From Nitrospinota bacterium (lineage in GTDB: Bacteria; Nitrospinota_A; UBA7883; JACRGQ01), in assembly GCA_016200345.1 (NCBI GenBank), contig JACQEX010000059.1:1-33363 (forward strand): a stretch of 33,363 bases of DNA, given 5' to 3'. Positions 1,781 to 28,532 of this stretch are shown one piece after another. The translations under genes and the position numbers were made by a program. Position 1 is the stretch's first letter. The number at the start of each line of letters is the position of its first letter. The notes below the pieces were generated by a model, which searched no databases, was not told the DNA's origin, and saw only the letters and a list, made by a program, of their open reading frames with translations.

Positions 1781-2459
1781 CCACAGGCTCGTTCGCACGG
1801 GCCTCGTCCTCGCCTCCGCCGTTTTGATGACGGCGGCGTTGTATCTTTCGCTTGTGTGGGCCCCCGAGGCCGTGGGCGAGACGGACGTGTACAGGATAAT
1901 ATTTTTCCACGTGCCGACGGCCATCATGTCCTACCTCGCCTTTTTTATCGTGTTCGCCGCCAGCGCCGCGTACCTTTGGAAAGGGGAGCTTTTATTCGAC
2001 CGCGTCGCAAGGGTCGGGGGCGAGCTAGGCGTTCTCTTTTGCTCGTTGATGCTTTTGACCGGCATGATATGGGGCAAGCAAAGATGGGGCGCGTGGTGGC
2101 TTTGGGAGCCGCGCCTTACGACGGCCCTTATACTCTTGGTGATATACGCAGGATATCTTGCGCTTCGAAACGTGGTGGACAACCAGATAACGCGCGCGCG
2201 ATACGCGGCGGTTTTTGGGATAATCGGGTTCATTGACGTGCCGATCGTCCACTTCGCGATAAAGATGTGGGGCAACATCATGCACCCCGTCGTCATTAAA
2301 TCGGCCTCGGACACCGGGATGTCGCCGGAAATGACCGTTGCGCTCCGCGTCGGCATGCTCGCCTTCCTCGCCCTTTTTGCGACGGTGTTTTTGCTTAGGT
2401 TTAGGCTGGAAAATCTTTCCGCCCGCGTTTCCTCGCTTCGCGCGTCGTCCGGAGACTGA
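1755..2459 (+). CDS. ccmC: Heme transporter/handling protein CcmC
   Basis: About 234 residues with six predicted membrane helices. CcmC presents heme to CcmE in the periplasm. The signature tryptophan-rich loop is WGAWWLWEPRLT, with Glu where many homologues have Asp. Candidate heme-ligand histidines lie in IFFHVP and PIVHFAIKMW, flanking that loop as expected. The start is uncertain: TTG at 1755 gives a usual-length N-terminus and overlaps ccmD by 26 bases; TTG at 1746 and ATG at 1686 are alternatives in the same frame. The ATG would overlap ccmD by 95 bases and add an unusual polar extension, so it is less likely. The downstream HD-domain gene follows closely. Confidence 0.85.
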   Translation: MEKILRLADHRLVRTGLVLASAVLMTAALYLSLVWAPEAVGETDVYRIIFFHVPTAIMSYLAFFIVFAASAAYLWKGELLFDRVARVGGELGVLFCSLMLLTGMIWGKQRWGAWWLWEPRLTTALILLVIYAGYLALRNVVDNQITRARYAAVFGIIGFIDVPIVHFAIKMWGNIMHPVVIKSASDTGMSPEMTVALRVGMLAFLALFATVFLLRFRLENLSARVSSLRASSGD

Positions 2460-13500: not shown

Positions 13501-15747
13501 TTACTTCACGCTGAAGTTTTGGATGTTGATCGAGGTTATTTTTTCCAGGTCGCCGCGTCTTTTCATCCTTTCCGTAAGGTGGGCGACCAGCTTGTCCTGC
13601 GCGTAGTGCGTGTCTGAATAAAACTTGTCCCTAAAAAATCCCTCTATCTCTTTCTCTATCGTCATCTCGTAAAGAAACTGCTTTTTCTCGGCGGTCGTTA
13701 AATCCTTGCCGGAAGCGAAGGTTATCTCCACGTCCGCCGTCATAACCTTCACCTGCTGGGCGTTGTAGTCCACCGGGACGATTATCCCAAAATTAAGGTT
13801 CTTGTTCTGCACCACCGGTTTTGGCGTGACCAGTCTTTCTTCCTTCTTAGCCAACTCAATCGGCTTTTCATGCTTGAGGCCCTCTTTCGGAGTCTCTGTC
13901 TTTGCCGGGGGCTCCTCCTTCTTTTCGGGGGGGGGTGCCGCGGCCTCTTCCTTGGCGGGCGGCTTCGCTGACGCCTCCTCGGTTTTTTTCTCGACCGGCT
14001 CCGTTTTCTCCGCGACTTTGGGGGCCTCGGGTTTTACCGGCTCTTCGTGTTTTGCCTCCTCTGTCGGTTTGACCGGTTTTTCGGCCTCCTTCTTTTCAGG
14101 CGCGGCAGGCGCGGGGGGCTTTACCTCAGCTAATCTCTTCTCCGGTTTCGGAGTAGCTTTTAATGCCGTCGTGATGTGGCCCTTCTTGGCAGTAATCAAC
14201 CTGGCGATGTCTAGATTGTGCCTCGCGCCGAATACGATTAGTGCCAGCGAGGCCGCCAGTGAAAAGGCCGCGATTTTTTGTCTTCGGCTTAGTTTCGGAA
14301 GTCGGATAAGCGCACGTTTTTTGACCTTCTCCGTTTCTTCCGCGTGTTGCTCCGCCTCCTCCGCGGCTTTCCCCGATGGTTCGGGCGCGGGAGTTTGTTG
14401 CGCTTTTTCCGGCGACTTTCCGTTGGCCGGGGCTTGCGCTTGGAAAGCCTCGCTTTCGAACAATTGCGAGGTGTCGGTCGCCTCCTCTTTGAAGAGGTCT
14501 TGTATGTTTGCCGACGAGGTATCGGCGGACGCCTCCCCGACTGCAGGGGCGGCTTCCGTTGCGAAAAGCGCGTTTAGGTCGTCCTGCGAAATTTCCGGTG
14601 TTGCGGCCGGGGCCGAACCGCCGGCCGGTTTGTCAACCGACGCCTCGGCAAACAGCGCGTTTAAATCGTCTTGGGAAATTAAGGCGTCCGACGGGTTTTT
14701 CTCCTCAGCCTTTTCCGGCGGTTGATTTGCGCCTGTGACGGCCATCAAACCCTCGACGCTCTCGCCGGTTATTGCCGCCGGAGCAGTTGGCTTGTCGGAG
14801 TCGTTTGTGGCGAATCCGTTGAGGAGAGCGTCAATATCGTCCTGTCCCGCTATGGCCGGTGTTTCGGTTTTTGCCGAGCCACCGAACAGGGCGTCAATAT
14901 CGTCCTGTCCCGCTATGGCCGGTGTTTCGGTTTTTGCCGAGCCACCGAACAGGGCGTCAATGTCGTCCTGTCCCGCTATGGCCGGTGTTTCAGTTTTTGC
15001 CGAGCCACCGAACAGGGCGTCAATGTCGTCCTGTCCCGCTATGGCCGGCGCCGGTTTTTGTTCGACCACCGGTTTGGGTGGTTCGGGAGTTTTTGCCACC
15101 GCGTTGAAGATTGCGTCCATTTCGTCTAGCTGAGACACCGGTTTTTTTTCAACCACAGGTTTGGGCGGTTCGGGGGTTTTTGTGACGTTTCCAAAGAGCG
15201 CGTCAATGTCATCCTGTCCACCAATCGCAACAATCGGCTCTATGTTGGCGGCTGAACTGAAAATCGCGTCCAGATCGTCTTGGGTGGAGGCGGGTTTTAG
15301 CACCGCCGCCGGTTCGGGTTTCGAAACCTTTTGTTCGGGGGCCTGTTTGCCGGTTTTTATTTCCGTGGCGACGTTCCCAAAAAGGGCGTCAATGTCGTCT
15401 TGGGCCGTTGTGGTTTTTGTCGGTTTTTCATTTAGGGCGTTAAAAATCGCGTCCAGATGGCCTTGTTCAGAGGGGGTTTGTAGGGGGGTGGTGACAATAA
15501 CTTGGGCCGCCGGTTCTTCCGGAGCAGGTTGTTCCTCGATTTTTTTGGCCGTTTCAACAACGGGGGCCGATTGCACGGGAGCTGTCTTGTTAACCATGGG
15601 TTGGGTTTGGTTCGAGGCTATCTTCTTCTTTTTCTTAACGAAAAAGATGTTTTCGCAACTGGCGCAATGGGCGTAGGTTCCGCTATCCGCGATGGATTCA
15701 GAATCCACCTGGTATTTGGTCGAACATTTCGGACAGGTCAACAACAT
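13501..15747 (-). CDS. Zinc-ribbon membrane protein with repeated QDDIDALF peptides and a FliL-like C-terminal domain
   Basis: A 748-residue protein. Residues 1-36 are an MJ0042-type zinc ribbon (C5, C8, C28, C31). Residues 95-430 are low-complexity linkers holding about eleven short acidic-hydrophobic peptides of the type QDDIDALF (for example at 116, 156, 178, 239, 260, 281, 302, 359, 388), with weaker ones at 97, 207, 414 and 426. A basic stretch precedes one membrane helix (492-509). A Pro/Lys/Glu-rich linker (530-645) then leads to a folded C-terminal domain (650-748). That domain, with its late helix region and ending NIQNFSV, is laid out like FliL. Peptides of this type resemble the SQxEIDALL peptide of FliM/FliN. 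Function is not known; the topology predicts repeats in the cytoplasm and the last domain in the periplasm. Confidence 0.8.
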   Translation of the reverse strand: MLLTCPKCSTKYQVDSESIADSGTYAHCASCENIFFVKKKKKIASNQTQPMVNKTAPVQSAPVVETAKKIEEQPAPEEPAAQVIVTTPLQTPSEQGHLDAIFNALNEKPTKTTTAQDDIDALFGNVATEIKTGKQAPEQKVSKPEPAAVLKPASTQDDLDAIFSSAANIEPIVAIGGQDDIDALFGNVTKTPEPPKPVVEKKPVSQLDEMDAIFNAVAKTPEPPKPVVEQKPAPAIAGQDDIDALFGGSAKTETPAIAGQDDIDALFGGSAKTETPAIAGQDDIDALFGGSAKTETPAIAGQDDIDALLNGFATNDSDKPTAPAAITGESVEGLMAVTGANQPPEKAEEKNPSDALISQDDLNALFAEASVDKPAGGSAPAATPEISQDDLNALFATEAAPAVGEASADTSSANIQDLFKEEATDTSQLFESEAFQAQAPANGKSPEKAQQTPAPEPSGKAAEEAEQHAEETEKVKKRALIRLPKLSRRQKIAAFSLAASLALIVFGARHNLDIARLITAKKGHITTALKATPKPEKRLAEVKPPAPAAPEKKEAEKPVKPTEEAKHEEPVKPEAPKVAEKTEPVEKKTEEASAKPPAKEEAAAPPPEKKEEPPAKTETPKEGLKHEKPIELAKKEERLVTPKPVVQNKNLNFGIIVPVDYNAQQVKVMTADVEITFASGKDLTTAEKKQFLYEMTIEKEIEGFFRDKFYSDTHYAQDKLVAHLTERMKRRGDLEKITSINIQNFSVK
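14828..15060 (-). repeat. 63-bp tandem repeat inside the QDDIDALF protein gene
   Basis: GCGTCAAT recurs at 14828, 14891, 14954 and 15017, a strict 63-base period. It encodes a 21-residue unit containing AIAGQDDIDALFGGSAKTET, three complete near-identical copies plus a diverged fourth. Neighbouring copies differ by very few bases, which indicates recent expansion by slippage or unequal recombination. The older, diverged repeats on both sides show the protein has grown this way before. Confidence 0.9.
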
Positions 15748-16904: not shown

Positions 16905-16979
16905 GGGTCAGGCTTGACTTATTGACTTATTTTTTTGCAATTAGGTTTTTTGAATAAGTCAATAAGTCAAGCCTGACCC
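16905..16979. repeat. GGGTCAGGC palindromic element (second family)
   Basis: Perfect 26-base inverted arms (16905-16930 and 16954-16979) around a 23-base loop. The left arm starts GGGTCAGGCTTGACTTATTG. It shares the outer GGGTCAG and an inner TTGAC with the other palindrome family but has a different interior. The left end is preceded by partial repeats (ATGAGGGTCA twice). The right end is repeated downstream: a 23-base segment at 16962-16984 recurs exactly at 16987-17009. Confidence 0.85.
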
Positions 16980-24200: not shown

Positions 24201-24986
24201 ATGTCCCGCGCAAGGTTCGGCCAACATTTTCTGGTCGACGGCGAGATAATCCAAACAATCATTGAATCCGCCGAAATCGGCGCCGACGATATCGTCGTGG
24301 AAATCGGCCCCGGAAAAGGGGCGCTTACCTCCCATTTGGCCGGATGTTCTGGAAACCTCACGTTGTTGGAGCCGGATCGGCGACTTGCCGACGAGTTGCG
24401 GCGCGCCCATAAAAACGCGCGCGTTCTGGTGCAAAGGGGGGAGGCGATAAACTTTGCCGGGTTTCCCGCGCATGTGGTGGTCGTCAGCAATCTTCCCTAT
24501 TACGCCTCCGTGCAGATTTTTAAGCATCTCTCGGAAAACAAGGGGGCGATTTCCCGGATGGTGCTGATGTTCCAAAAAGAGGTGGCCCAGCGCATATCGG
24601 CGGGGCCGGGGGGACGGCACTACGGCTCGCTTTCGGTTTGGAGCTCGTATAACTGGGAGATGGAGCAGGTTGTCACCGTTCCGGCCAAGGCGTTTGCACC
24701 GCCCCCGAAGGTGGAGTCGGCGGCGCTCCGTTTTAGGCCGCGCCTAAAACCGCCGGTGGACGGGGACGAGCAGGAGTTGTTTAAGCTGGTTCGCTCCTCC
24801 TTCGTGCTAAAGCGGCGGACGCTTGTGAATAATTTAAAAAATATTTATCCGGCGGACGCGTTGAATGCCGCGATGGAGTCCGCCGACCTCGGCCCGAAGG
24901 CCCGCGCGGAGGAAGTTTCGCTGGAGCAGTTCGCCAAGCTCTCGCAGTTGCTCGGCTCCCCCCCGTTGGAGCGGAAAATTTTGTAA
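24201..24986 (+). CDS. ksgA: 16S rRNA (adenine1518-N6/adenine1519-N6)-dimethyltransferase
   Basis: A 261-residue RsmA/KsgA that dimethylates two adjacent adenines in helix 45 of 16S rRNA late in small-subunit assembly. Motifs: FGQHFLVD at the N-terminus, the SAM loop EIGPGKGALT (34-43), motif IV NLPYYAS (97-103) and a C-terminal domain with FVLKRRTLVNNLKN. The ATG at 24201 begins just before FGQHF, as in the family. Its last 90 bases before the final two codons (24889-24978) are duplicated at 27747-27836. Length is normal, so the enzyme looks intact, ending LERKIL. Confidence 0.95.
   Translation: MSRARFGQHFLVDGEIIQTIIESAEIGADDIVVEIGPGKGALTSHLAGCSGNLTLLEPDRRLADELRRAHKNARVLVQRGEAINFAGFPAHVVVVSNLPYYASVQIFKHLSENKGAISRMVLMFQKEVAQRISAGPGGRHYGSLSVWSSYNWEMEQVVTVPAKAFAPPPKVESAALRFRPRLKPPVDGDEQELFKLVRSSFVLKRRTLVNNLKNIYPADALNAAMESADLGPKARAEEVSLEQFAKLSQLLGSPPLERKIL
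24889..24978 (+). repeat. 90-bp direct repeat, upstream copy (inside ksgA 3' end)
   Basis: These bases, from TCGGCCCGAAGG to GAGCGGAAAA, recur at 27747-27836 with a single difference (CAGTTG against CAATTG). They encode the last roughly 30 residues of KsgA. The repeat may be an attachment-site-like duplication or the scar of a local duplication. Confidence 0.95.
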
Positions 24987-25030: not shown

Positions 25031-25171
25031 TCAACCCGCCAATGCGGGCATTTCTTCCCAAATTTTATTTTCCAAAACCCTACCAGCTTTCTTTTTAAAT
25101 ACGCCACCCCACTGCTTGAAGAAAAAAGGCACGTCCTTTTGCAAACACTGGTTTTTTATTTCTAGGGGTAC
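25031..25171 (-). pseudogene. Gp37/Gp68-type (DUF5131) C-terminal fragment
   Basis: Read on the minus strand, 46 codons from the palindrome edge to a TGA encode [20 protein letters not shown] and then [17 protein letters not shown]. This matches the C-terminal end of the phage Gp37/Gp68-like DUF5131 family (IRDQC...[10 protein letters not shown]...GRxLDGxxWxEMP). The large N-terminal part with its three-cysteine motif is gone: the reading frame upstream is palindrome sequence. These proteins are usually encoded next to TcmP, a fragment of which lies at 27311-27643 on the same strand. Confidence 0.72.
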
Positions 25172-25242
25172 GGGGTCAGACCTTGACATTTGACAAACTT
25201 TCAAAAAACATACATGAATGTCAAATGTCAAGGTGTGACCCC
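25172..25242. repeat. GGGGTCAGACC palindromic element, copy 2
   Basis: Arms at 25172-25195 and 25219-25242 pair with one mismatch (GTGTGACC instead of GTCTGACC) around a 23-base loop. The loop, the flanking GGGGTAC on the left and ATTCTGCC on the right are shared almost exactly with copy 3 at 27649, so copies 2 and 3 are recent relatives. The left edge abuts the DUF5131 fragment. Confidence 0.85.
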
Positions 25243-25254
25243 ATTCTGCCTTTT

Positions 25255-25333
25255 GATTTGACTATTTTTACCGGAGCGCATATCATTTCGTCATGGCAAA
25301 GGGGTCAAGCAGGGGTCATATGGGAAATGTCGG
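25255..25333 (+). promoter_or_regulatory. Duplicated promoter segment A
   Basis: TTGACT (25258-25263), a 17-base spacer and TATCAT (25281-25286) form a good sigma-70-type promoter. About 79 bases around it recur at 26813-26892. Downstream of the -10 box are two GGGGTCA motifs, the same terminus as the palindromic elements. The first gene downstream starts at 25452, leaving a leader of about 160 bases. Confidence 0.65.
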
Positions 25334-25451
25334 TTAATATATTTTTAGGTTCTGGGCTACGGTAATTGCAATCCACTTATACGGAGGTATCGAAATCAGG
25401 AGAATGTCATCTAGGAAATATTGGCTTACATGGCTTAAAAAGGGAGAGTAA
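25334..25451. other. Leader region before the first exported-protein gene
   Basis: AT-rich, no coding frame recognised. AGGGAGAG at about 25441-25448, just before the ATG at 25452, serves as ribosome-binding site. Confidence 0.45.
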
Positions 25452-25862
25452 ATGAAAAACTATCTTTTACCTTTAGCCTTAATATCCGCGTTTGTAATGT
25501 CCGCATACGGCGGTTCTAATTCTCCGGCGTTGTTCGGCCAAACAGAAAATTTGACAATTGGCACGCCTACGCTCACGACTACAAGGCAAAATGTCCTCAA
25601 TATTGCCTCAAACAAAACATTCGGCGGAGTCCCGTTCTGCTTTCTTATTAACCGCGTGGCGGCTGCCGGTATGCTACGGGACTATTCCGACAAGCAGATT
25701 GAAAATGGTCTCTGCATGACCTCGATAGAGGTAGTTTGGGCCATCGGCACCGACGACTCGTTCAAGGAGGACGTGTGCGGGCAGGCGGCTCAATATATGA
25801 TGATAGAATTCAATAAACGGTTCCCAGGCCGGTCACCAAATGAAGTAATCGGCAAGTGCTGA
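25452..25862 (+). CDS. Small exported cysteine-containing protein, unknown family
   Basis: A 136-residue protein with a probable signal peptide (MKNYLLPLALISAFVMSAYG) and a mature part holding four cysteines (C63, C88, C109 and the last residue C136), which could form two disulfides in the periplasm. The central region (FGGVPFCFLINRVAAAGMLR; DYSDKQIENGLCMTSIEVVW) looks globular and mostly helical. I do not recognise the family. It lies in the AT-richer zone between the two ksgA-end repeats, behind duplicated promoter segment A, and its composition differs from the housekeeping genes, suggesting horizontal origin. Confidence 0.65.
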   Translation: MKNYLLPLALISAFVMSAYGGSNSPALFGQTENLTIGTPTLTTTRQNVLNIASNKTFGGVPFCFLINRVAAAGMLRDYSDKQIENGLCMTSIEVVWAIGTDDSFKEDVCGQAAQYMMIEFNKRFPGRSPNEVIGKC

Positions 25863-25999: not shown

Positions 26000-26626
26000 A
26001 TGAAAACGATATTTATCTTTTTAATCATTCTTTTATCCCCTGCGTTTGCATGGGCTGGTGACATAGGAATACAAGCTGGGACAACTATTGTCGGTCACGA
26101 ATATAACGAGGTCCTAAACCGTTACATCGAACGAAAAATAACTATCTGGGGCTTTTCAGACAATACATTCTCAATAAATGGGGGAACCACATTTGGAGAT
26201 GCCGACGTATATTTCCCCAACGAAAAAAAGACTTTGGAAAAATTGGTTTGGGTAATGGATAAATCGTTGGAGTGGTCTGATATAGCAATTAAGAACAATG
26301 CGTCAGCCTCCAAACTGTTTGGCTGTTTTTTGGGCGAGGAAGGATTTAAGGCCACATCATGTCCATCTGACAAGCTACTTGCTGCGGTGAATCACAGTGG
26401 ACGCATAATATTCAGCTTTAAATCTTCCGTGATAGGAGGAAAGGCGATACCAGAATTGAAGGCTAATTTTTTCAGTTATGCTATAGGCTCACTCCCCGAC
26501 CGCGAGGCCGCTATTTTAATTCCTTATGAAGAGATTAAAAAATTGAAAATCGCCGTCCAAAATATAGGCGAAGCGATAAAATGGGCCAAAGAACGTGCAA
26601 AAAAGGAAAAAGAGTTGTTCAAATAA
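26000..26626 (+). CDS. Exported protein of unknown family
   Basis: A 208-residue protein with a clear signal peptide (MKTIFIFLIILLSPAFAWAG, cut probably after A19). The mature part starts with strand-like sequence (DIGIQAGTTIVGHEYNEVL), has two close cysteines (C109, C121) and ends with a highly charged helix (IKWAKERAKKEKELFK). No family is recognised. GAGGATATT before the ATG gives a ribosome-binding site. It follows the 25452 gene after 137 bases with no evident promoter of its own, so both may be read from promoter segment A. AT-rich codon use supports foreign origin. Confidence 0.65.
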   Translation: MKTIFIFLIILLSPAFAWAGDIGIQAGTTIVGHEYNEVLNRYIERKITIWGFSDNTFSINGGTTFGDADVYFPNEKKTLEKLVWVMDKSLEWSDIAIKNNASASKLFGCFLGEEGFKATSCPSDKLLAAVNHSGRIIFSFKSSVIGGKAIPELKANFFSYAIGSLPDREAAILIPYEEIKKLKIAVQNIGEAIKWAKERAKKEKELFK

Positions 26627-26812
26627 ACTGCACGAAGTCATTTGCCGAATATCGGTTTATATATTTTTTTATTAAAAGCCCCTAGAAAGGGCCGGGGTTG
26701 CTACGCTCCACCATTAAAGGCAAATATGGGCACTGGGTGGAAGAGATAGTTTTCTGAACCCCAGCGTCTTCCTCATTTCAAAAATCTGCTACCGTCCCGT
26801 GACGGGCGGCGT
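26627..26812. other. Intergenic region before promoter segment B
   Basis: No gene is recognised. Two hairpins are visible: GCCC-ctagaaa-GGGC (near 26679) after a T-rich run, and CCCGT-g-ACGGG (near 26796). Neither is followed by a proper T-tract on the plus strand, so terminator function is unproven. Confidence 0.4.
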
Positions 26813-26892
26813 GATTTGACTATTTTTACCGGAACGTGTATCCTTATCTTCATGGCAAAGGGGTCAAGCAGGGGTCATATGGGAAATGTCGG
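26813..26892 (+). promoter_or_regulatory. Duplicated promoter segment B
   Basis: TTGACT (26816-26821), a 17-base spacer and TATCCT (26839-26844). The segment repeats segment A (25255-25333) almost base for base apart from the -10 region and one extra base. It carries the same pair of GGGGTCA motifs. It is positioned to drive the gene at 26935. Confidence 0.6.
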
Positions 26893-26934
26893 CTTATAAA
26901 ACTAGGCTCTAATGCTGGGAGAGGAAACAAGCCT

Positions 26935-27246
26935 ATGAAAAAACTTCTGACAGTTTTTGGCCTGATTGCGATTTTGTTCCTACTCTCCACACAGGTTACG
27001 ATTTTTGTAATTCCTCCTATCGGAATACTTCCGGAAGGGAAAACCCTCGTAATTTCACGGTTAAACAAGACAAATTTTATTGATAGTGCAGATTCTATGT
27101 GTGAACGATTACAAGGAAACGTGAATTTGTTGTGTCGGGCCATGTCTATGGGAACTGTAGTAAAAATTGCAAAAGTTTATGCAAGGCTTCCCTATAGTGA
27201 GTGGCTATACCTTATTTCGACAGGGGGGAAGAAGTATGATAAATAG
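26935..27246 (+). CDS. Small membrane-anchored or exported protein, unknown family
   Basis: A 103-residue protein with an N-terminal hydrophobic segment (residues 4-28), acting either as a signal peptide or an anchor, then a small domain with two cysteines (C56, C67) in SADSMCERLQGNVNLLCRAM. The cysteine spacing could allow an intramolecular disulfide. No family is recognised. The ATG at 26935 follows GGGAGAGG at a workable distance; the frame is open further upstream but only through the promoter segment. It is the third exported-protein gene in the repeat-bounded zone and has its own copy of the promoter segment. Confidence 0.6.
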   Translation: MKKLLTVFGLIAILFLLSTQVTIFVIPPIGILPEGKTLVISRLNKTNFIDSADSMCERLQGNVNLLCRAMSMGTVVKIAKVYARLPYSEWLYLISTGGKKYDK

Positions 27247-27270: not shown

Positions 27271-27321
27271 GGGGTCATGTTGGTGTTGGGGTCATGTTTG
27301 ACTCACTGACTTATTTTGACG
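27271..27321. repeat. Half-element related to the palindrome at 16905
   Basis: GGGGTCATGTT occurs twice (27271 and 27288). The second is followed by TGACTCACTGACTTATTTTG, which tracks the left arm at 16905 with only a few differences. No matching right arm is found, so this is a single-sided remnant. It supplies the stop codon that ends the TcmP fragment. Confidence 0.6.
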
Positions 27322-27643
27322 CATGATCTGCACATGGCAAGGAAACCATAAAGGCAAACAAGGGTGATGGAGGTGAAAAAGGGTTGCTTTTTCGTTTTTC
27401 CAGTTCAGACAAGCCGTCAACAAAAGAAGTGTTAAAAAAATATGAGTTAATTTTAGGGCCGGTTTGCACTGAAGCAAGTTTCTCCTTAAGGTGGGTAAAG
27501 ATATCGGTATTCTGTTCGATAAAAACGCATTGAACGTTTCCCGCCTGCCATTGGTTTCCTAGCCTGGCAATTGTTTTGTCCGCAGAAGTAACTGCGGCAA
27601 CAGGGGAGCCTGACGGAAAATTAGTGTATTCGCCGGGGCCTGG
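27311..27643 (-). pseudogene. TcmP (three-Cys-motif partner protein) internal fragment
   Basis: On the minus strand a 110-codon open frame starts at the palindrome edge with GPGEYTNFPSGSPVAAV, then NVQCVFIEQNTDIFTHLKEK, then LSELEKRKSN and PSPLFAFM. This follows the TcmP pattern: (FAGPGEYxxGxxGSPxxAL, FxFIExxxxxFxxLxxxL, then a strand ending FxFxDPFG). The N-terminal region and everything after the PLFAF strand are missing. Both breaks coincide with palindrome-family sequence (27649 and 27288-27320). TcmP proteins are encoded next to Gp37/Gp68-type proteins, the other remnant on this strand. Confidence 0.7.
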
Positions 27644-27648
27644 GGTAC

Positions 27649-27719
27649 GGGGTCAGACCTTGACATTTGACACACTTTCAAAAAACATACATGAATGTCA
27701 AATGTCAAGGTCTGACCCC
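27649..27719. repeat. GGGGTCAGACC palindromic element, copy 3
   Basis: Perfect 24-base arms at 27649-27672 and 27696-27719 around a 23-base loop nearly identical to that of copy 2. Its right terminus is tandemly repeated: CTGACCCCATTCT at 27712-27724 and again at 27725-27737. The left edge abuts the TcmP fragment; the right edge is 9 bases from the second copy of the ksgA end. Confidence 0.88.
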
Positions 27720-27746
27720 ATTCTCTGACCCCATTCTGCCTCGGGA

Positions 27747-27836
27747 TCGGCCCGAAGGCCCGCGCGGAGGAAGTTTCGCTGGAGCAGTTCGCCAAGCTCT
27801 CGCAATTGCTCGGCTCCCCCCCGTTGGAGCGGAAAA
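27747..27836 (+). repeat. 90-bp direct repeat, downstream copy (ksgA 3'-end pseudogene fragment)
   Basis: It matches 24889-24978 at 89 of 90 positions. In the ksgA frame it continues past LERK into a Lys/Pro-rich tail instead of stopping. That frame ends at a TGA (27941-27943) that overlaps the start region of the following HTH gene. It could therefore be the original 3' end of ksgA rather than the copy. Confidence 0.92.
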
Positions 27837-27942
27837 CAGTTAATCGGCAAAAATCGCCAAAGACGCCAAAAGCGCAAAAAAGGCCAATAAGGCCAAAAGC
27901 GCAAAAGCCCTCCGCCCTCTTCCGTTGTATAAAAGGGGCATG

Positions 27943-28353
27943 ATGACAAACAGAATTCAGAATACAGAAGTCAGGATACAGAACGGGAGCGAGGGCAGGC
28001 CTGAGACGCTTGCGTTGCCTTCCGCCTCGGAATTAAGGATTCAACAATTTGAGCAGATCCAAATGGCGAGTTCCTATTTGATGAAAAGGGCGAAAAGGGG
28101 GAGTGTGCGCGCGGTCAGGATGCTTTTGAATTGCGGCAAGCACGCTTTTAGCCTGCTTGAGGCCGAGGAGGGGACGGAATGGCTGGCGCCTGGAAAGTGC
28201 GCCGACATGATTGGCGTGTCGGTCAGGACAATCCAAAGGGCCGTGGAGTCCGGGGCGTTGTGCGTCTCCCGAACGTCCGGGGGCCACAGTCGTATTCAGA
28301 AAAAGGATTTTGAAAAGTGGCGAACCGTTCAAAAACCCCCCGAAAATGACTGA
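27943..28353 (+). CDS. Excisionase-like helix-turn-helix protein
   Basis: A 136-residue protein. The C-terminal 55 residues are an excisionase/MerR-like winged HTH: WLAPGKCADMIGVSVRTIQR, then AVESGALCVSRTSGGHSRIQ and KKDFEKW. The N-terminal 75 residues are polar, then helical, with no known motif. Such domains serve as recombination directionality factors or as small repressors. The ATG at 27943 has AGGGG four bases upstream; ATG 27940 and TTG 27925 are alternatives. It follows the downstream copy of the ksgA end directly, and no integrase gene is in the window. Plasmid or phage regulator is an alternative. Confidence 0.7.
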   Translation: MTNRIQNTEVRIQNGSEGRPETLALPSASELRIQQFEQIQMASSYLMKRAKRGSVRAVRMLLNCGKHAFSLLEAEEGTEWLAPGKCADMIGVSVRTIQRAVESGALCVSRTSGGHSRIQKKDFEKWRTVQKPPEND

Positions 28354-28532
28354 AATCGCGACAAACGCGACAGATTTGACGTTAAGGACGGCGCGCCGGA
28401 ATCAACGCGGGGTTGTTGCATGAAGATTTATTTAAGCAAAGATTTGTGGATTGCGCCGGGGGCTTTGGTGGGATAGACTTTTGGGGAACCTGCAATAGTT
28501 GCCGGTAACGTAATTTTTGAGAGGAAACAAAT

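Follow-up and report, generated by a model that had tools for sequence, protein, structure and literature searches.

The window considered here, a stretch of 33,363 nucleotides of Nitrospinota bacterium DNA, carries between rsmA and glgP a minus-strand open frame that a preliminary description of the sequence had read as an unannotated internal fragment of TcmP, cut at both ends by repeat elements. The frame raises the question of whether it is indeed a piece of a tcmP gene and, if so, what became of the rest of that gene and whether the repeats beside it had a part in the truncation. The features discussed below are collected in Table 1.

Table 1 Features in and around the rsmA-glgP gap. Positions refer to the window.
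Feature	Position	Strand	Remarks
rsmA 3' end, original copy	24889..24978	+	
DUF5131 remnant	25046..25162	-	last ~40 residues; PF07505, identity to G006 partner
second 83-nt unit	25165..25247	+	98% identical to the unit at the tcmP break; flush with DUF5131 break; DNA hairpin -27.2 kcal/mol, z -9
rep2 promoter-leader	25252..25346	+	TTGACT-17-TATCAT, then GTCATATGGGAAATGTCGG; ahead of 136-aa ORF
136-aa ORF	25452..25862	+	signal-peptide-like start (by eye), no family; between the remnants
208-aa ORF	26000..26626	+	signal-peptide-like start (by eye)
second rep2 promoter-leader	26812..26898	+	91% identical; ahead of 103-aa ORF
103-aa ORF	26935..27246	+	hydrophobic N-terminus, no convincing family
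weak half-element	27288..27320	+	related to 16905-16979 hairpin: 86% over 28-29 nt, E 1e-4
tcmP remnant	27347..27640	-	in frame, residues 51-148 of 375-aa TcmP; TIGR04474 and identity to G006
83-nt REP-like unit	27642..27724	+	flush with tcmP break; DNA hairpin -30.1 kcal/mol, z -11
rsmA 3' end duplicate	27747..27836	+	89/90 identical, 22 bp right of REP unit

The TcmP and DUF5131 remnants

The frame at 27311-27643 is free of stop codons across all of its 110 codons, and its translation includes the peptides quoted in the preliminary description. Searched with the TIGR04474 profile of NCBIfam, as had been proposed there, residues 2-83 of the frame matched profile positions 40-120 of 263 (E 6.6e-5), at a score of 23 bits that lies below the curated whole-protein cut-off of 53 bits. 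A score below the cut-off is expected, as the remnant represents only about a third of a protein, and we therefore refer to it as a TcmP remnant rather than as a member of the family. A Pfam profile search of the 110-codon frame gave no match. The alignment to an intact relative agrees with the TIGR04474 result: the frame is 56% identical, over 98 aa (E 2.1e-35), to the 375-aa TcmP of a genome of the same family (G006), a protein that itself scores 201.8 bits against TIGR04474 and whose match sits within an open frame of 382 residues. Given this alignment, the TcmP match is real and not due to chance, and the reading of the frame as an unannotated internal fragment on the minus strand holds. 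When the DNA of the remnant is aligned to the G006 TcmP, 27347-27640 corresponds to residues 51-148, and the homology is confined to these 98 residues. The extent that had been given to the fragment is thus right for this part, while the final 11-12 codons of the frame are non-homologous to TcmP and read into the half-element.

The similarity stops at FAF(M/I), residue 148, directly ahead of the DPFG motif, which is nearly invariant across the TcmP family alignment and which we take to be the counterpart of catalytic motif IV. What is lost comprises the N-terminus as well as the whole sequence from DPFG onward. Like TcmP, the remnant has the GPG motif and the end of the acidic strand, and it is 56-58% identical to the members from G006 and Gallionellaceae; unlike TcmP, it amounts to about a quarter of the protein and has no start, DPFG motif or C-terminal region. 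As it ends just before DPFG and is without the C-terminal region, the protein predicted from it cannot be an active enzyme. The longest ORF in the remnant frame that starts with ATG, GTG or TTG has 52 aa, and the ORF list holds no minus-strand ORF of at least 90 aa at the remnant, in agreement with the earlier remark that standard gene calling would miss the fragment for want of a start codon.

The fold was considered for the intact G006 relative rather than for the fragment. The AlphaFold model of this relative (pLDDT 86.5, pTM 0.86) matched mostly SAM-dependent methyltransferases when compared with the PDB by Foldseek (best E 1.6e-5). Among the 50 matches listed, the TM-scores are modest (0.20-0.41 when normalised by the query and up to 0.52 when normalised by the target), and the methyltransferase likeness should therefore be considered as a statement at the level of fold. 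With this in mind, the G006 relative is predicted to have a class I methyltransferase-like fold, of which the remnant retains the first part of the core, without the DPFG motif.

A search of 60 genomes with the fragment, its own genome included, gave matches at E <=1 in 15, and besides its own genome only G006 matched strongly, the remaining 13 being found at E 0.047 or worse. In its own assembly, 27347-27640 is the single match to the TcmP family. The phage records searched with the fragment gave no match and the plasmid records only one weak match (26% identity, E 0.7), to an annotated tcmP on a Mycolicibacterium plasmid. A search of PDB sequences with the TcmP alignment gave nothing significant. 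In the literature, the passages found for 'three-Cys-motif partner' give the name in lists only.

The description of the locus as a TcmP fragment, correct in itself, covers only half of what is present. At 25046-25162 on the minus strand lies the C-terminus of a DUF5131 protein (PF07505, profile 198-243 of 243, 33.4 bits against a cut-off of 28.9, E 4.8e-8). This piece had been missed; across 43 aa it shares 84% identity with the partner protein of G006. In a scan of GTDB representatives, relatives of the G006 TcmP were found at 16 loci, the G006 locus included, and in 11 of these tcmP is immediately followed by a DUF5131 gene of the same strand. The strand of the DUF5131 remnant and its order relative to tcmP match those of the intact pairs. 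On the basis of these comparisons, what the window retains of a single destroyed TcmP-DUF5131 pair is a piece of each gene, in the original order. The assembly to which the window belongs contains a single fragment of each of the two families, and the missing parts of both genes are absent from it; it should be noted that this assembly, in 113 contigs, is about 93% complete, and that what is missing could have escaped assembly. Another genome of the same family (G002, contig C18, L070, ~1981-2100, minus strand) also carries a degenerate piece of DUF5131 from the C-terminus, with no GGGGTCAG hairpin adjoining it.

The two intact G006 proteins are recognised by PADLOC, TcmP as PDC-M30A (6e-49) and PDC-M41A (2.3e-14), and DUF5131 as PDC-M30B (2e-117) and PDC-M41B (6.9e-121). 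PADLOC lists PDC-M30 and PDC-M41 as candidate anti-phage systems, and it is by this label only that the pair is a putative defence system. As in PDC-M30 and PDC-M41, in which A is TcmP-like and B is DUF5131, both components occur here, encoded on a single strand in the order that is usual for them. These systems, however, consist of adjacent intact A and B genes, while the window has two remnants 2.2 kb apart; both genes are truncated and the system is dead.

Hairpin units at the breaks and across the genome

The repeat at the upstream tcmP break is an 83-nt REP-like unit composed of GGGGTAC, a 24-bp inverted repeat and CATTCT. The similarity to TcmP stops at 27640 and the unit runs from 27642, whereas the palindrome at which the break had been placed (27649) comes 7 nt further on; the repeat does adjoin the remnant, and the exact break, at 27641/27642, falls at the start of the unit rather than at the palindrome. 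The DUF5131 break meets the second unit in the same manner, so that both breaks contact the GGGGTAC side of the unit within 1-2 bp. At the other end of the tcmP remnant, about 27 bp separate the break from where the half-element (27288-27320) ends. This element is weak and shows no significant DNA fold (z 0.20). The claim that the fragment is cut by repeats at both ends is thus correct for the upstream end, which is flush with a hairpin unit, and was not borne out for the downstream one. No Rfam model matched within the window at gathering thresholds, and the matches obtained at loose thresholds were set aside as chance-like hairpins to eukaryotic and viral RNA models.

Half-sites of the unit were searched in the assembly with up to 3 mismatches, yielding 24 half-sites that were grouped into 13 REP places, 6 of which carry the 83-nt unit in near-identical form (94-100%). 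Two further hairpins, at 16905-16979 and on C91, are of another type; they were inspected but are not among the 13. We then scanned with Pfam and NCBIfam the 64 open frames of at least 25 aa that run into a hairpin edge at these places. Family matches at E <=0.01 were found at 6 of the 13 places, and in 5 of these cases the match to the profile breaks off at the hairpin edge. These comprise DUF5131 and TcmP, as described above, a HigB toxin (profile 57-91 of 91), an FGE-sulfatase (25-56 of 255) and a DUF1016/YhcG nuclease (DUF1016_N 66-137 of 137, together with YhcG_C, which occurs once in the assembly). The flush frame on C24 (Ig-like) was dropped as a truncated gene, as the frame covers the missing start of the domain; C77 (MazE-like, E 0.018), as well as C91a/b and C37 (by eye, no family support), were left out of the count.

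As a control, 59 frames at 13 random points in the gaps of the window were scanned with Pfam, and no gene truncated in the manner seen at hairpins was found; the sole match was to Rpb6/omega, apparently an intact gene lying in what had been counted as a gap. This control is small; it was drawn from one contig, in the window's own gaps, with five points in one gap, and was scanned with Pfam only. The contrast of 5/13 at hairpins vs 0/13 at random points comes from a small sample and is suggestive. At the HigB place (contig C54, L058, ~2066-2584), a HigA-like antitoxin frame, recognised by eye, adjoins the HigB-like toxin cut at the REP unit.

The assembly has four Y1_Tnp matches, among them a Y1 transposase gene of the RAYT type (C53:532-855) that is flanked by GGGGTCAG / CTGACCCC motifs, lying between GGGGTCAGGTCTTGCAAA and TTGCAAGACCTGACCCC. 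The sequences flanking this gene may point to a REP/RAYT relation, but have only the GGGGTCAG core in common with the 83-nt unit. The system resembles REP/REPIN elements with their TnpA_REP (RAYT) in that short hairpins are repeated and dispersed, and in that the same genome has a Y1 transposase gene between motifs with the GGGGTCAG core. It differs in that only 13 places were found with the query used, and in that several copies adjoin truncated genes rather than lying between whole ones. GTAG and CGTC denote super-families of REP elements (PMC3733652), and neither tag was found in the sequence of the 83-nt unit. Cleavage in vitro beside REP hairpins has been described (PMC8266576). Among the papers listed, our literature search found no report of REP units bordering truncated genes, which is not proof that none is in print, and a search for the GGGGTCAG palindrome gave nothing relevant among the matches listed.

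The gap itself was compared with that of G001, a genome of the same genus, in which about 115 bp lie between rsmA and the start of glgP, without the insert. The G001 sequence just past rsmA resembles 28441-28482 of the window, just upstream of glgP, and the gap in the window is about 3.5 kb longer. The insert contains the two remnants, the two 83-nt units, a duplicate of the rsmA 3' end, three small ORFs that gave no convincing family match and two promoter-leaders. The two copies of the rsmA 3' end are 2.86 kb apart, with the duplicate beyond the REP unit.

Origin of the truncated pair

The locus is the ruined form of a gene pair of known kind, and apart from its interesting pattern the decay is ordinary. 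We consider it probable that a TcmP-DUF5131 pair once occupied the rsmA-glgP gap on the minus strand and has since been destroyed; we infer both that the pair once functioned at this place and that the hairpins were the sites at which its breaks arose. The process would have begun with an intact pair in the rsmA-glgP gap of this lineage. A RAYT-type single-strand transposase could then have cut beside a hairpin at one end and joined elsewhere, or dispersed REP copies could have recombined with each other, and the promoter-leaders and small ORFs would have been gained in the gap later. Truncation linked to REP units, by RAYT or by recombination, is plausible, although one end of the tcmP remnant is away from any hairpin and the repeats flanking the C53 RAYT gene share no more than the core motif with the 83-nt unit.

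The cause of the breaks is disputed by an account in which the genes decayed through random deletions and the REP units came later, or are nearby by chance, without causing anything. This account is a variant of the preferred one, as it likewise accepts the pair as a ruin, and we regard it as possible, though on the whole unlikely. The tcmP break that is not at a hairpin fits it, as does the G002 DUF5131 tail, which became degenerate with no such REP unit adjoining and thus indicates that the gene decays without these units too. Random deletions would, however, have to explain why two distinct breaks both fall within 1-2 bp of one and the same end of the unit, and why three more genes, elsewhere in the genome, are cut right at a hairpin of this kind. 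It is also conceivable, yet quite improbable, that no intact pair was ever present and that REP units brought pieces of tcmP and DUF5131 into the gap as passengers. That both fragments are flush with the same (GGGGTAC) end of the unit would be in line with such capture; the 2.5-kb stretch between two units in direct orientation, like the 90-bp duplicate of rsmA, hints at segmental movement, and the insert is absent in G001 of the same genus. Separate captures, however, would not favour fragments that keep the strand and order of the intact pair, and the assembly has no donor copy. Finally, one might take the 110-codon frame for a functional short protein instead of a remnant, as it is open over its full length. 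The part homologous to TcmP is, however, preceded by no start codon, the longest started ORF has 52 aa, both the DPFG motif and the C-terminal region are lacking, and the last codons read repeat DNA, so that this is very improbable.

Taken alone, the destroyed TcmP-DUF5131 pair is one more dead gene pair overlooked by annotation. It gains a little weight from the fact that both candidate-defence genes end at copies of the same hairpin, and that three unrelated accessory genes in the genome likewise end flush with hairpins of this kind. A wider reading, which we put forward tentatively and hold to be rather doubtful, is that REP hairpins act as break points, at which RAYT activity or recombination between REPs repeatedly cuts accessory genes (defence, toxin-antitoxin and nuclease), leaving one part fused to the hairpin while the rest is lost; REPs would in this way prune the defence repertoire and seed new promoter-gene cassettes in the gap. 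Should such flush contacts recur in other genomes, REP/RAYT activity would offer a concrete way, open to testing, in which defence genes are lost from bacteria.

Other contents of the gap

The rsmA duplicate was considered as an integrase attachment site and rejected, as family searches of the insert's ORFs revealed no integrase. The sequence that follows it, 27837-27944, was likewise rejected as the original tail of rsmA, as it resembles the sequence beside other REP units and as rsmA of the same genus ends otherwise. This sequence consists of a lysine-rich tract with a 9-nt period, followed by a CAGAATTCAGAATACAGAAGTCAGG stretch, and is akin to the REP-adjoining sequence on C77 and C38, as in a dispersed repeat. 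Between the rsmA duplicate and glgP, at 27925-28353, lies an ORF of 142 aa that encodes a domain of the excisionase/HTH_17 type (HTH_17 in Pfam, 3.8e-7); this ORF is absent from the rsmA-glgP gap of G001. For the 208-aa ORF of the insert, no relative was found in the 11 other genomes searched (12 with its own).

The rep2 promoter-leader is present in 8 copies in the genome (91-100% identical), two in the window, two on C45 and one each on C108, C53, C54 and C38, with weaker relatives in G001, G006 and G009. Each copy precedes a different ORF, including an HKD+Snf2-like helicase and, as judged by eye, a C5 DNA methyltransferase, and the repeat ends sharply at AAATGTCGG. The rep2 repeat looks like a portable promoter. 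Elsewhere in the window, in-frame 63-nt tandem repeats are found at 14801-15060, inside a 748-aa minus-strand protein.
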